Of a DNA stretch of 35,486 bases, positions 17,151-35,431 are shown piece after piece. Each line of letters begins with the position of its first letter. Position 1 is the first letter of the stretch. Under the pieces are notes generated by a model that was not told the DNA's origin, did no database searches, and saw nothing but the letters and a program-made list of their open reading frames with translations. The translations under genes and the position numbers were made by a program. Source of the DNA: Leuconostoc inhae KCTC 3774 (GTDB taxonomy: Bacteria > Bacillota > Bacilli > Lactobacillales > Lactobacillaceae); contig AEMJ01000219.1 in assembly GCA_000166735.2 (NCBI GenBank), positions 1-35,486 of the forward strand, given 5' to 3'.

Positions 17151-17451
17151 TAGCAAACAACTCCCTACGCGCCTGCTGATGATCCACATACGCAATAAGT
17201 TCATCATAGAATTCATCTGGTATTTTCATCTCAAACGCTTGATCAAAAATATGCTTTTTCTTGGCTTCAGCTGCAATGGTACGATCCAATCCAATATATG
17301 CACCACGGCCATTAGCTTTGGAAGTTGGGTCTAGGTTAACGTTTCCCTCTTTATCACGAACGACACGAACAAGATCTTTTTTGGGAAACATTTCACCTGT
17401 AACAATATCTTTTCGCATTGGTATTTTTCTAGGTTTCATAATATTTAGCAT
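17137..17451 (-). CDS. ylxR: YlxR family protein (RNA-binding/regulatory, DUF448)
   Basis: A basic protein of about 100 residues with the family signature near the N-terminus (MKPRKIPMRKDIVTGEM) and GRGAYI in the middle. YlxR proteins are reported to bind RNA and affect RNase P or transcription; that is family knowledge, not visible here. Two starts are possible: ATG at 17451, directly after a hairpin that separates it from AGAAGGG, or ATG at 17439, which gives the usual N-terminus MKPRKIP. Neither has a near Shine-Dalgarno. It lies between nusA and ylxQ, overlapping the latter. The frame is intact. Confidence 0.9.
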   Translation of the reverse strand: MLNIMKPRKIPMRKDIVTGEMFPKKDLVRVVRDKEGNVNLDPTSKANGRGAYIGLDRTIAAEAKKKHIFDQAFEMKIPDEFYDELIAYVDHQQARRELFANADK

Positions 17452-17488
17452 GTCTTAGCTAGTCTTACAAAAACAAATAGCTGCAGAC
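17452..17488 (-). promoter_or_regulatory. Hairpin between Shine-Dalgarno and start of ylxR
   Basis: On minus, GTCTGCAGCTA and TAGCTAAGAC form a 9-bp stem with a small internal loop and a 16-base loop. AGAAGGGAAAT lies directly 5' of the stem and the ATG directly 3', so folding would bring them together. An 11-codon frame starting at the ATG overlapping the 5' base of the hairpin ends at a TAA 3 bases before the ylxR ATG, in the same frame. Confidence 0.45.
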
Positions 17489-17504
17489 ATTTCCCTTCTA
17501 AAGT

Positions 17505-21078: not shown

Positions 21079-23513
21079 TTATTTTGTCGCATGAATCGAT
21101 AACGGTTTAATCAACCAAGGTGTCCCATTCTTCTTAACATCGACAACATATTGTCCATTACCAATGCGTTGCGATGGATGATAGTCGCTTAACTGTAGCT
21201 CTTGAGCTTGCCAGCGCGTTGTCAAAATTTCCAATGCCGTTTCATGAGCCTCAAAAATAGTCGCAGCAGCAACATGATAGGCAACCGTCTTTTTTGTGTG
21301 AAAATTAATAATCCTTTATTTGCACGTTTTGAACGATTGATTTCTGAAATCGGCATATATTTAAACGCCCCATTACTAGCTACAATTGCCACTTGCTGTG
21401 AATCATTTGTAATAAACAATGCTGCCATAATTGTGTCAGTTCCACGTAAATCCATTGCCTTGACACCAGCTGTACGTGGCCCAATTTCTGGGACATCTGT
21501 TACTTTAAATCGAAGACCCACACCATCGTGAGATAGTAGCAAAACATCTTGTTGCTTAGCTTGTTTGAAATAGGCGATACCAACTACATAACTACTATCT
21601 GTCTTAAGTTTAATTGCCATGCTTGTTTTTCTTGTAAGCCTTTGGTAACATATCGCTTAATATTGTCTGCTTTATAAAGCCATCATTAGTCACAACAGTA
21701 AAAGCACCTTCTTGTTCAAGATTGTCAATAGCAATAACCTTAATAACAAACTCATCTGCATGCCAATTTGATAGCTGCTGTGAAAAATGTTCGCCAGTAT
21801 CTTTCCATTTTGAATCCGGTAATTCGTGAACTGGTCGATAAATGATGTTGCCTTTGTTAGTGAACATAAACAAATGCTGCGTTGTATTGAGCTGACCTTC
21901 AAAAATAGCTAAATCATCCTCAGCCAAACCATTATCAGAGTCTGAGGCTTTATAAGACCGTAAAGATGCACGTTTATAATAACCATTGCGAGAGACTAGC
22001 ACTTGTACGTCCTCTTCGGCGATAGTAATGGCTGAATCAATGATCAGGTTTTCAACCTCAGCTTCAATTTCTGATCGGCGTGGTGATCGATATGTTGTTG
22101 TAATTTCTGCAATTTCGTCACGTATGACATCATTTAAGGCTGACGATTCATTAATAATTAAGTTTAAACGCACAATTTTAGCCGCAAGTGTCGCAAATTC
22201 TTCTTCTAGCTGTGTCACATCTGTGTTCGTCAAACGATACAATTGCAATGTAACAATTGCTTCTGCTTGTGGCTGTGTGAATTGATAGCTGTCAATCAAG
22301 TTTTGTGTGGCATCTTTTCGATTCTTTGAGGCACGAATCGTCGCCACGACTTCATCTAATATTGACAACATACGGATCAAACCTTCAACAATATGTTGTC
22401 GCGCCTGCGCTTTCGCTAATTCATACGCTGAGCGTTTCAAAACAACTTCTTTACGAAAGTTCAAAAAAGCTTCCAGACCTTGTTTCAAACTCACATGAAC
22501 TGGCCTCTGATCATGAATGGCCACCATATTAAAGTTGTAAGAAATTTGCAAATCTGTTTTTTGAATAAATAAGTCAATATACCGGCAGCATTAACATCTT
22601 TATTAAGTTCTATAACAATGGACATACCTTCCCGATCAGACTCATCACGAACTTCAGATATGCCAGCAACCTCTTTGTTTAATCGAATACCATCAATTTT
22701 TGCTACTAAATTCGATTTCACAACTTCATATGGCAATTCGGTAATTTCAATTTTCTTTTTGCCACCCTTAATTTCTGAAATGACCGTTTTGGCACGAACC
22801 ACAATTTTACCGCGACCAGTTTTATAAGCCTTTTTAATGCCATCAAGACCTTGTATAATACCACCTGTTGGAAAATCCGGTCCTTTAACATAACGCATTA
22901 ATGCAGATAAAGGTGCTTCCGGATGATCGAGTAAATAGGTTAAAGCACCATTTATTTCTTTTAAATTGTGTGGTGGGATTTCTGTCGCATAGCCTGCCGA
23001 AATGCCAGTGGCACCATTAATAAACAAACTCAAAACTCGTGATGGTAAGACAGTCGGCTCATACGTCGTGTCATCAAAATTCAAAACCATATCAACAGTT
23101 TCTTGTCCTAAGTCTGTCATCATCTCCCCAGCAATTTTTGACAAGCGCGCCTCAGTATAACGCATGGCCGCCGCTGGATCATTATCAACCGAGCCATTGT
23201 TACCGTTCATATCAATTAATGGTTCGCGTACTTTCCAGTTTTGTGACAACCGAACCATTGCTTCATAGATGGATGAATCACCGTGAGGATGGAAATTACC
23301 CATGACATTACCAACTGATTTTGCTGATTTACGATAAGGATGGTCAAACGTATTGCCATCCTGATCCATCGCAAATAAAATACGCCGTTGTACGGGTTTT
23401 AAACCATCACGGATATCCGGTAATGCACGTTCTTGAATAATATATTTTGAATAACGCCCGAAGCGCTCGCCCATCACTGCCTCGAGTGAAAGTTCAGTTA
23501 TACGATCTGCCAT
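21079..23513 (-). CDS. parC: DNA topoisomerase IV subunit A (three frameshifts)
   Basis: The breakage-reunion subunit of topoisomerase IV, for decatenation of daughter chromosomes. The N-terminus carries [17 protein letters not shown], with Ser and Glu at the usual quinolone-resistance sites (wild type), and the catalytic Tyr in [10 protein letters not shown]. The beta-propeller C-terminus continues to the stop at 21079. The frame breaks three times: one base missing at 22557-22562 (six T on plus, seven needed), one extra at 21626-21630 (five, four needed) and one missing at 21290-21295 (six, seven needed). Corrected, it is 811 residues, normal for ParC. Three shifts in one essential gene point to sequence error. 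ATG at 23513 has no close Shine-Dalgarno; AAAGGA is beyond a hairpin. It follows parE. Confidence 0.93.
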
Positions 23514-23522
23514 ATATATGAT

Positions 23523-23545
23523 TGTCTATTATTACTAAATAGACA
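23523..23545 (-). promoter_or_regulatory. Hairpin between Shine-Dalgarno and start of parC
   Basis: TGTCTATT and AATAGACA form an 8-bp stem, extendable past a 2-base bulge. AAAGGA lies 5 bases beyond it and the ATG 9 bases on the other side; if folded, spacing is about 14 bases. Confidence 0.45.
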
Positions 23546-23573
23546 CAATTCCTTTCAAATAAAATTACTACGC

Positions 23574-23603
23574 AAATACCGTATACAATTGTACACGGTA
23601 TTT
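23574..23603. repeat. 30-base palindrome in the parE-parC gap
   Basis: AAATACCGT, TACAATTGTA and ACGGTATTT form a palindrome with a single mismatched position per arm. There is no long T-run, so it may be a processing hairpin or protein site and not a terminator. Confidence 0.5.
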
Positions 23604-27128: not shown

Positions 27129-29366
27129 TTAATGAAAAGTGCGCTCGACATCATAAACCGCAGGTAGTGTATTTAGTGCATCCATTATACCATTGAGTTG
27201 CATACTATTTTTGACACCAAGTGACAATGATACCTGCGCCATACCATTTTTTGTCACATGTCCGTTAACTGAATTCACAAATCGTGTACGCCCATTAACA
27301 GCACGTAAAACGTCATTAAGTAAACCATTACGATTTTCACCGTGAACTGTCAAATCAGCATCATAATTAGGTTTTAAGCCTTCTTCATCTTCCCATTGTA
27401 CATCAACTAATCGTTGTCCCTGTGTTTCTGCCGCACGAATATTCGGACAACCAACTCGGTGAACAGAAATACCACGTCCCTTTGTAATATAACCTATCAC
27501 TTGATCCCCAGGAACTGGTGTGCAACAACGACCCAAACGGATTAAAAGATTGTCAACACCAGCAATCACAATATCATCTGCTGAACCCTTTTGACGTTGT
27601 GTTAATGCCGTTTCGCCACGCTTAATTTCATGTCCTTCTTCAAGTAATTCGCGCTGTAATTCAGCTGTTTCAGCTTCTTGTTGTGCTTCACGGATACCCT
27701 CGGTCAACTTGTTCACAACCCCAGGAACTGTAACATCCCCATAACCAATTGCTGCAAACATATCATCGTATGAATGATAATGTAGTACCTCAGCTGTTTT
27801 AGTTAAATTCTCTGTTGACAAAATAGCTATCGTACTAAATCCTGTATCACGCAAATTTCGTGTTACTAATTCTCGTCCTGCTTCAATATTGTCATCACGG
27901 TCTAACTGCTTAAAATATTGTTTGATTTTATTACGTGCACGACGGGTTGACACTAAATCTAACCAATCTCGACTCGGTTTGGCGGATGTACTTGTAATAA
28001 TTTCAATAATGTCGCCTGTTTTAATTTTATAATCAAGTGGCACAATTCGACCGTTAATTTTTGCGCCTGTTGTTTTAATACCAACATTCGTATGGATTGA
28101 AAAAGCCATATCTAGTGGTCCTGCACCTTTAGCTAACTCAAAAACATCTCCTCGTGGTGTAAATGCATAGACACGGTCACTAAATAAATCACCTTGAACT
28201 CCATCCATGAAATCTTCAGCATTTTTCGCATCTTCTTGCAATTCTAAAATACCTTGGATTACATTTAGTGCTTGTTGGCTATGATCATTAATTTTAACTT
28301 CTTTATTAGCACCTTTATTTTGTTTATAAGCCCAGTGTGCTGCCACACCAAATTCAGCCACTTCATGCATCGTATGTGTTCTAATTTGTACTTCTAATGG
28401 TCGACCTCCAGGGCCAATCACGGTGGTGTGCAAACTTTGGTAACCATTGGCTTTTGGCAATGCAATATAATCTTTGAATCGACCAGGCAACGGCATCCAT
28501 TTTGAATGAATCGCGCCAAGTACAGCATATGTATCTGGAATTGTTTCTGTCAAAACACGTACCGCAGATAAATCGTAAATTTCTTCGAAAGCTTTATGTT
28601 TGTCTGTCATTTTACGATAGATTGAATAAATATGTTTTGGTCGACCATAAACATCGATATGTTGTAATTCAAGCTCTTGAATGGCTGTTTCAATTTCAGA
28701 AACTGCTTCCTGTACATACCTAATACGTTCGTCACGTTTCATATTCATTCGTGATGCAATACTATGATATTTTTCTTGATTTAAATAACTTAAAGATAAA
28801 TCCTCAAGTTCCCATTTGATTGTACTAATACCTAAGCGATCGGCCAATGGCGCGTAAATATCTAACGTTTCACTTGCAATACGATGTTGTTTTTCCTCAC
28901 GTAAAGCACCTAAAGTTCGCATATTATGCAACCTGTCAGCCAGCTTAACAATAATAACGCGAATGTCCTTTGACATCGCCAAAAGTAATTTACGATGATT
29001 TTCTGCAAGTTGCTCTTGTGAATTTTTGTACTGAATCTTACTAATTTTAGTAACACCATCAATAATTTGGCTAATCGTTTCGCCAAATTTTGCTTCAACA
29101 TCTGCAAGTGTTGCTGGCGTATCTTCAACAACATCATGTAAATAACCAGATATGACAGTTGCCGTGTCCATCTTTAATTCAGCTAAAATACCAGCAACTT
29201 GAATGGGATGAATAATATAAGGTTCGCCCGATTTACGCAACTGTCCTTTATGTAAATCTGATGCCCATTCATATGCAGCCCTAACTTTTGCAGTATCTGC
29301 ATCAGACATGTATTGCCCAACTAAGGTCAGTACTTCTTCGCCTGTATATTTTTTTGTTTTTGCCAT
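27129..29366 (-). CDS. rel: Bifunctional (p)ppGpp synthetase/hydrolase Rel
   Basis: Makes and degrades the stringent-response alarmone. Domains in order: an HD hydrolase with HDVVEDTP (so hydrolysis is likely kept), a synthetase with RFKDYIALPKANGYQSLHT, TGS (VYAFTPRGDVFELAKGAGPLDMAFSIH), a conserved cysteine region (GRCCTPVPGD) and a C-terminal ACT domain. I give ATG at 29366 (MAKTKKYTGEEV, 745 residues) as start because it matches family length, but it lacks a near Shine-Dalgarno. An in-frame ATG at 29417 has GAAGGGA just before it and would add 17 residues. A hairpin lies between the two. The promoter is at 29500-29528. The frame is intact. Confidence 0.95.
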   Translation of the reverse strand: MAKTKKYTGEEVLTLVGQYMSDADTAKVRAAYEWASDLHKGQLRKSGEPYIIHPIQVAGILAELKMDTATVISGYLHDVVEDTPATLADVEAKFGETISQIIDGVTKISKIQYKNSQEQLAENHRKLLLAMSKDIRVIIVKLADRLHNMRTLGALREEKQHRIASETLDIYAPLADRLGISTIKWELEDLSLSYLNQEKYHSIASRMNMKRDERIRYVQEAVSEIETAIQELELQHIDVYGRPKHIYSIYRKMTDKHKAFEEIYDLSAVRVLTETIPDTYAVLGAIHSKWMPLPGRFKDYIALPKANGYQSLHTTVIGPGGRPLEVQIRTHTMHEVAEFGVAAHWAYKQNKGANKEVKINDHSQQALNVIQGILELQEDAKNAEDFMDGVQGDLFSDRVYAFTPRGDVFELAKGAGPLDMAFSIHTNVGIKTTGAKINGRIVPLDYKIKTGDIIEIITSTSAKPSRDWLDLVSTRRARNKIKQYFKQLDRDDNIEAGRELVTRNLRDTGFSTIAILSTENLTKTAEVLHYHSYDDMFAAIGYGDVTVPGVVNKLTEGIREAQQEAETAELQRELLEEGHEIKRGETALTQRQKGSADDIVIAGVDNLLIRLGRCCTPVPGDQVIGYITKGRGISVHRVGCPNIRAAETQGQRLVDVQWEDEEGLKPNYDADLTVHGENRNGLLNDVLRAVNGRTRFVNSVNGHVTKNGMAQVSLSLGVKNSMQLNGIMDALNTLPAVYDVERTFH

Positions 29367-29378
29367 ATTTTCAACTAT

Positions 29379-29414
29379 GTTACTTAGACAACCATAGTAT
29401 GGTGTCAATGTAAC
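29379..29414 (-). promoter_or_regulatory. Hairpin over the rel translation start region
   Basis: GTTAC...GTAAC closes a 36-base hairpin with about 13 pairs and two mismatches (inner GACA-CCAT with ATGG-TGTC around one bulge). GAAGGGA lies just 5', an in-frame ATG overlaps its 5' side, and the ATG at 29366 is 12 bases 3'. It could choose between two Rel starts. Confidence 0.4.
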
Positions 29415-29499
29415 CATATTTCCCTTCATATCTTCCGGAAGACACATTGCTATTTTAAAAACCGCAGTGTGCCTTATAACGCTTTTTATGCGTAATTTA

Positions 29500-34855: not shown

Positions 34856-35383
34856 TTAATGTACGATTTCGACGGCATCATGGCCATCAATTTCTTGAAC
34901 CAGTACTTTGATTTTTTCATTTTGAGCTGTTGGAATGTTTTTGCCAACAAAATCGGCACGTATTGGTAATTCACGGTGACCACGATCTACCAAAACAGCT
35001 AAAGAAATACTATTTGGTCGCCCTATATGTATCAGCGCATCTAATGCGGCACGTATTGTTCGGCCAGTAAATAAAACATCATCAATCAAAACAATATTTT
35101 TATCAGCAATATTATTTTTTTCTGCCTCATTTAAGCCTAGGCTATCCTCTTGATTCAAAACATCATCACGGAAATTAGTGATGTCAATTGCCATAACGGG
35201 AATTTTCACACCTTCCAGTTGCTCTAAACGACTAGCAATACGTTGCGCTAAAAATTCGCCACGCGTTTTAATACCAACAAGAATTAAATCTTGGCCACCC
35301 TTGTTTCGTTCAATAATTTCATATGTAATACGCGTCAATGCACGTTGCAACGAGGCACTATCAAGCACTTCTTTATTTGTCAT
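34856..35383 (-). CDS. pyrR: PyrR bifunctional pyr operon regulator/uracil phosphoribosyltransferase
   Basis: An RNA-binding attenuation regulator that senses UMP/PRPP, with weak uracil phosphoribosyltransferase activity in the family. The 175-residue protein has [19 protein letters not shown] at the N-terminus, the PRPP-binding motif [13 protein letters not shown] (97-109) and [21 protein letters not shown] at the C-terminal side. ATG at 35383 fits the family but is separated from AAAGGAG by a hairpin. If one A were missing in the run within that hairpin, an ATG at 35413 with good spacing would add 10 residues. It leads into the carAB-like genes, not into pyrB/pyrC. No PyrR-type attenuator is visible in the 48-base gap upstream. 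The frame is intact. Confidence 0.93.
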
Positions 35384-35392
35384 AATAGTTGC

Positions 35393-35414
35393 GTATGTTA
35401 TTTTAACAACATAC
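35393..35414 (-). promoter_or_regulatory. Hairpin between Shine-Dalgarno and start of pyrR
   Basis: GTATGTT and AACATAC pair (7 bp, extendable by a G-T pair), with AAAGGAG 2 bases 5' and the ATG 9 bases 3'. A 4-codon frame (ATG TTG TTA AAA TAA) starts in the stem at good spacing from the Shine-Dalgarno. Confidence 0.45.
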
Positions 35415-35431
35415 TTCTCCTTTCAAATAGC

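Follow-up and report, generated by a model that had tools for sequence, protein, structure and literature searches.

How is translation of parC initiated in Leuconostoc inhae KCTC 3774, where the Shine-Dalgarno sequence (SD) lies farther from the start codon than a functional linear distance and no SD occupies the ordinary position? In the window, by which we mean the whole stretch of 35,486 nucleotides analysed here (contig AEMJ01000219.1; L. gelidum group), the N-terminal part of ParC (340 aa in this draft) is encoded at 22491..23513 on the minus strand, as identified by family search and the same-species frame of genome G004, and opens with an ATG at 23511..23513. Upstream of this codon, on the same strand, we observed a 9-nt 3' exterior linker (23514..23522), a hairpin of eight perfect base pairs with a 7-nt loop and a stability of -7.3 kcal (23523..23545), a 4-nt 5' exterior linker (23546..23549), and the sequence GAAAGGA (23550..23556), which constitutes a 7-nt SD because the 16S tail from the same genome is GGATCACCTCCTTTCT. 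The earlier note on this DNA had described the same 8-bp hairpin, with an SD about 38 bases from the ATG and a folded spacing of about 14; the stem, the distal SD and the shortening all stand, and the distances are instead 36 nt along the chain and 13 nt outside the hairpin (the 4-nt and 9-nt linkers combined). Prediction and the covariation described below both indicate that the intervening RNA folds so as to bring SD and AUG closer while leaving the two outside the fold.

An in-frame TAG falls within the 3' arm of the hairpin (23526..23528, minus strand) and is followed by no ATG, GTG or TTG before the parC ATG, the only start-like codons there being ATC and ATA, so that an upstream start at one of these three codons is excluded, as the earlier note had argued for upstream starts. 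The ParC N-terminus is invariant over 19 genomes apart from E7D in three and A2V in one, and this conservation favors the ATG at 23513 and speaks against the internal Met14. The parC frame is disrupted near residue 320 in this 893-contig draft and the match to relatives stops there; in the complete same-species genome G004 (1,954,080 bp) parC runs uninterrupted for 816 codons, and the break is possibly a draft error. ParC of the window and ParC of genome G005 share 99% identity. When a 121-nt parC region was folded, it reached z = -2.5 with 5 of 200 shuffles equally stable, and this chance test from a single sequence is only moderate taken alone. Two further observations concern the same leader: in its predicted fold, TGAAAG of the SD region (23550-23556) pairs with CTTTCA in codons 8-9, and upstream of the SD the parE-parC gap holds another perfect inverted repeat, TACCGTGTAC-AATT-GTATACGGTA (23577-23600), part of which is found again in close relatives.

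The parC hairpin is conserved in relatives. The order SD, hairpin, ATG was observed in 12 of 19 Leuconostoc genomes with 11 distinct stems, while a close SD was present in the other seven. Named species with the hairpin are gelidum, inhae, miyukkimchii, rapi, lactis, holzapfelii, citreum and palmae; by eye, none was found in pseudomesenteroides, carnosum, falkenbergense or litchii, nor, among 40 of 80 loci, in Weissella, Oenococcus or other Lactobacillaceae. Most of the Fructobacillus and Convivina parC leaders among those 40 loci carried GAAAGG about 14-18 nt from the ATG.

We then assessed covariation, a check that the earlier note had proposed, using the 11 distinct aligned bridged leaders, 500 shuffles and six slid registers. 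Standard pairs filled 93.2% of the stem cells, and both sides had changed at 5 of the 8 pairs (14 cells). The covariation score was 0.593, compared with 0.10-0.17 for the slid registers and 0.286 for the shuffles, none of which (0/500) reached the observed value. Weaker measures were less discriminating, in that five both-side-changed pairs were also reached by 9 of 500 shuffles and further pair types showed no excess over shuffles in this 11-leader test (9 versus 9.6). The ends of the aligned leaders were invariant, with GAnAGGA at the SD end and, at the other, ATATATG, formed by the last linker nucleotides together with the start codon; within the hairpin only a C and an A of the 3' arm did not vary. 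Read from these alignments, the changes are compensatory and preserve the parC pairing, and it is this comparative evidence that is decisive.

Closer inspection of the window bore out the earlier note's claim that three more genes are built alike, each having an SD, a hairpin and an ATG, with stems that differ in other species. The identities of PyrR, YlxR (RnpM), RelA/SpoT and ParC were confirmed via family searches, and all four genes lie on the minus strand. In pyrR, the SD GAAAGGAG (35417-35424) is followed by 2 nt, a 9-bp hairpin (35393..35414), 9 nt and the ATG at 35383. The window pyrR locus is cut off in the set of 18 pyrR leaders and was read from the window directly; within that set the hairpin was scored in 11 leaders with 8 distinct stems, L. 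palmae being scored canonical through an AAGGAG that falls within its 3' arm. The ylxR (rnpM) hairpin (17450..17490) stands between the SD GAAGGGA (17492-17498) and a start taken as the second ATG, at 17439. It was scored as bridged in 12 of 13 leaders, a count in which rapi was missed by the filter and two cases are doubtful, palmae, whose hairpin has -1.2 kcal, and carnosum, where a GGAGG precedes a fold of 92 nt. The rel hairpin (29379..29414) likewise follows a GAAGGGA (29421-29427) and precedes a start taken as the ATG at 29366, and it was scored as bridged in 11 of 13 leaders, with inhae scored canonical despite folding like its neighbours. In citreum and palmae this hairpin has a stem of 4 bp, and in L. 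lactis it reaches 79 nt and -35.8 kcal, yet the SD and the ATG side are kept across species. The longest open reading frames would start at 29447 for rel and 17451 for ylxR; the start of rel at 29366 (MAKTKKYT) is the sole one listed for L. gelidum and is matched by one in each of the other Leuconostoc species compared, and cross-species comparison favors the shorter forms of both genes, such that the longest-frame starts are probably not the real ones.

For purR, a bridging hairpin was scored in all 19 Leuconostoc genomes, with 16 distinct stems. Outside the genus, inspection by eye of 15 genomes revealed purR hairpins, once more with different stems, in four (Convivina, Fructobacillus pseudoficulneus, F. 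fructosus and bacterium L1_55_11), no clear site in ESL0958, and no hairpin in the ten others, from Oenococcus, Weissella, Lactiplantibacillus, Ligilactobacillus, Lacticaseibacillus and Pediococcus. In the MAFFT alignment of purR the 3' arm is one column off in a group that we label, as a guess, mesenteroides-like (G009, G013 and G018); pairs were not counted on that alignment, and stems were compared in register. Different stems at the same place were also observed across species in thyA, yfcE and a gene encoding a VIT-like protein, and yfcE, ylxR and parC have a plain close SD in some species.

The largest inserts were found in ychF, whose identity was confirmed via family search and which was flagged as bridged in G011; in G004 it lies outside the part of the genome scanned. 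Five further genomes have ychF hairpins, with a near-identical stem in lactis and different stems in holzapfelii, citreum, carnosum and palmae. Six gelidum-group genomes (loci L415, L418, L414, L419, L411 and L413) lack an SD within 90 nt of the ATG and instead carry GAAAGGAAACGTG, with GAAAGG 104-117 nt before the ATG, and the whole gap is predicted to form one closed domain of 91-104 nt that ends 9-12 nt from the ATG. The pattern thereby extends to 12 of 19 genomes, G000 having been read to 90 nt only, and no distal SD was found for ychF in litchii, falkenbergense, pseudomesenteroides, G009, G013 or G018.

To assess how widely this arrangement occurs, we compared a 1.2-Mb part of G004 with a 0.8-Mb part of G011, which realizes in part the genome-wide scan that the earlier note had suggested. 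Among 497 ortholog pairs sharing a start, a close SD was present in both species for 215 and in one for 64, a bridged hairpin in both for 18, and neither for 200. Thirty-five pairs were eligible, since in each species their SD was distal with none close to the start, and hairpins occurred in both species in 18 of these at -3 kcal, 16 at -6 and 15 at -8. In 60 shuffles of the same gaps the corresponding means were 3.75, 1.15 and 0.35, with maxima of 7, 6 and 2. The bridged genes recovered included those for dUTPase, rnz, tsaD, thyA, lysS, threonylcarbamoyl-AMP synthase, an RluA-type synthase, two rlmD-like genes, walK and mutL. For rlmD, mutL and walK, the hairpin is weak in at least one of the two species, and rlmD of G010, G011 and G006, with a hairpin formation of 0.12-0.16, gives doubtful hits; a GntR regulator is probably a false hit, as its gap differs little between the two species and resembles coding sequence of the preceding gene.

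Counts within single genomes pointed the same way, with 29 bridged genes versus 7.6 expected in the G004 part (185 eligible of 1041 genes) and 31 versus 6.2 in the G011 part (115 eligible of 708), some evident false hits being included in both. A simpler scan of G004 for perfect stems, with 15 shuffles, showed no excess for stems of at least 5 bp (66 versus 65.7) or at least 6 bp (24 versus 24.4), 13 genes versus 7.7 at 7 bp or more, and 9 versus 3.0 at 8 bp or more. Because single-sequence statistics and this simple scan are weak, the ortholog test and covariation were needed. By extrapolation, the excess scaled to whole genomes corresponds to roughly 35 to 56 genes.

In the loci examined, the excess is bound to the clade. 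Twelve Leuconostoc parC loci contained 18 bridged leaders versus 2.0 expected (38 eligible; at least one plainly false). In the parC neighbourhoods of other groups the counts were at chance: 6 versus 4.75 in the Fructobacillus/Convivina clade (60 eligible), 2 versus 3.45 in Weissella (48 eligible), 0 versus 0.3 in Oenococcus (9 eligible) and 4 versus 7.2 in other Lactobacillaceae (138 eligible). Among the loci examined, bridging is confined to Leuconostoc plus, for purR, its nearest relatives. A lack of ribosomal protein S1 was considered as an explanation and rejected, given that an S1-like match was present in 41 of 41 genomes, weak in G036 and in none above the family cut-off.

We next evaluated geometry and predicted folding across 134 bridged leaders, which belong to 23 genes, comprise 125 distinct segments and, being orthologs, are non-independent. 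The filter required a hairpin 3-16 nt before the ATG and at most 10 nt after the SD, with SD and ATG outside the stem, and the bridged class omits leaders with an SD word of at least 5 nt at 4-14 nt. Contig ends cut pyrR and the VIT-like gene of G000, thyA of G005 and probably that of G003; the cut G000 pyrR was left out of the leader count, and the other cut leaders are counted among those in neither class, bridged or close SD (20 of 183). Linear aligned spacing in the bridged leaders was 40.1 +/- 12.5 nt (22-105), and exterior aligned spacing 10.0 +/- 2.8 nt compared with 6.9 +/- 2.1 nt for ordinary SD genes (178 values), a difference of about 3 nt that counts against a bridge. Hairpin length was free, at 13-92 nt in this set (92 being a doubtful case) and up to about 100 nt when ychF is included. 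The linkers were constrained: the one before the ATG was 9 nt in 45 of 125 segments (36%; null 6.8%) and the one after the SD was 2 nt in 37 of 125 (30%; null 13%). For 98 of the 125, no more than 5% of 30 shuffles matched the stability of the segment itself. Predicted formation of the hairpin pairs averaged 0.90 over 84 leaders, as a ratio that may exceed 1 in an individual leader. Over those leaders the SD was predicted to be 62% and the ATG 45% unpaired, which, like the alternative pairing open to the SD in some leaders, parC among them, speaks against a pure bridge.

We consider it probable, at roughly 85%, that parC and an estimated few dozen further Leuconostoc genes have a split, or bridged, translation initiation region. 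A strong SD (GAAAGGA or AAAGGAG) is too distant from the start codon along the chain, and the RNA between it and the AUG would fold into a hairpin or closed domain that brings the SD helix and the AUG to a separation of, most often, 2 + 9 nt. A single 30S subunit could then hold SD and AUG together with the folded RNA looped out, the fold standing in for the fixed linear spacer. If the fold replaces the spacer in this way, pairing and the two linkers would be under selection and the sequence of the stem and the size of the insert would be free. A bridge like that of phage T4 gene 38, which the earlier note had envisaged, is thus supported by the covariation and the scan. From this pattern, and from T4 genes 25 and 38, we infer that the hairpin stays folded while initiation takes place and that SD and AUG are used jointly by the ribosome across it.

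The hairpins might instead be regulatory elements (sensors of a ligand, temperature or protein) or RNA-stability elements that merely happen to lie between SD and ATG, a reading suggested by their location in leaders and by the presence of regulators (purR, pyrR, walK and rel) among the genes. We regard it as unlikely, since neither stem nor loop sequences are conserved among genes or orthologs, and a stability element would need no 2 + 9 nt, whereas the linkers are peaked around inserts of 13 to about 100 nt. The SD and ATG moreover remain outside the stem, as the filter requires. No Rfam family matched the hairpins at the gathering threshold in the five sources scanned, where the sole match was a tRNA at 1707-1795 of the window and no known leader RNA was found.

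More doubtful still is initiation at a GTG, ATG or TTG 3-11 nt after the SD, within the hairpin, with translation of a short leader ORF and reinitiation at the gene's ATG. GTG does occur at this distance in the 5' arm in 53 of 125 segments, compared with 18.7 in shuffled (maximum 31 of 100) and 35 in reverse-complemented segments, and any of the three codons in 79 of 125, compared with 59.4 (maximum 71) and 63; bridging does not predict the GTG enrichment, and GTG itself is missing from some orthologs. However, 46 of the 125 segments contain none of the three codons there, their presence is inconsistent within genes (7 of 11 for parC, 10 of 16 for purR), and reinitiation leaves the covariation and the peaked 9-nt linker unexplained. 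An upstream ORF was rejected as the main mechanism on account of this inconsistent presence and the 46 segments that lack any such codon.

That the hairpins are neutral palindromic insertions, tolerated without selection, appears highly improbable. The plain close SD of yfcE, ylxR and parC in some species does imply that inserts come and go, but the compensatory changes at parC indicate selection for pairing, and the hairpins of 20 G004 genes had no repeat copies in the 1.2 Mb part. A repeat-family origin was rejected from that same comparison, in which matches beyond self were self-complementary or 14-16 nt long. As an account of where the inserts came from, neutral insertion is compatible with bridging. 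Least probable of all are DNA-level operators or transcription terminators, which would account for inverted repeats near gene starts but not for repeat sequences that vary between genes at a position tied to SD and ATG, and at parC, the only gene inspected for this, an intrinsic terminator was rejected as no T-run follows the stem (ATCATATATATG).

To our knowledge, bridged SD-hairpin-AUG sites are known from two phage T4 genes. The published account of these describes a hairpin between SD and AUG in gene 38 that reduces 22 nt to 5, and in gene 25 a structure that reduces 27 nt to 11, occurs in close T-even phages and is missing from more distant ones, and was studied with reporters and probing; mutations that destabilize the structure reduce initiation in both genes (PMC3014915, which for gene 25 draws on Nivinskas 1999 and Malys and Nivinskas 2009). 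The Leuconostoc sites resemble gene 25 in an SD and AUG too far apart, a structure between them and a clade-bound occurrence, and the commonest linkers (2 + 9 = 11 nt) equal its value; gene 38, at 5 nt, shares the hairpin between SD and AUG, parC going from 36 to 13 nt where gene 38 goes from 22 to 5. They differ from gene 25, a single phage gene in the account, in comprising many bacterial chromosomal genes with inserts of 13 to about 100 nt and compensatory change, and in being known from sequence and prediction. In the split thrS ribosome binding site of E. coli, a single-stranded stretch farther upstream is set apart from the SD and AUG by a hairpin that acts as an operator for a repressor. 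Unlike the hairpins of Leuconostoc, this one is not known to lie between SD and AUG. For the split thrS site, the ribosome is reported to accept a long hairpin and leave it folded (PMC3936740). Among the matches listed in our literature search, no title or opening of an abstract describes SD-hairpin-start sites in Leuconostoc, though coverage of subscription journals was thin and an earlier description is possible; PMC5217627, which names Leuconostoc and SD, reports no such sites in its excerpted text. Within the literature searched, a kind of site already known from T4 is thus new for Leuconostoc and as a many-gene bacterial feature.

We lean, with less assurance than for the split initiation region itself, toward a broader proposal: in Leuconostoc and its nearest relatives, domains of 13 to about 100 nt that are looped out may be a standard third type of start, in addition to close SDs and SD-less starts, used by several dozen genes per genome, as the excess over shuffles suggests, with universal housekeeping genes included. 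Such sites would be gained and lost gene by gene, possibly with a clade-specific ribosome or factor making them efficient. Predictors of start sites or expression that use linear SD spacing are expected to miss or misplace bridged starts, and the finding raises the question of how a spacer expands without loss of expression. The Leuconostoc leaders amount to natural compensatory mutants with inserts of 13 to about 100 nt, which makes the reach of the 30S subunit across folded RNA directly testable.
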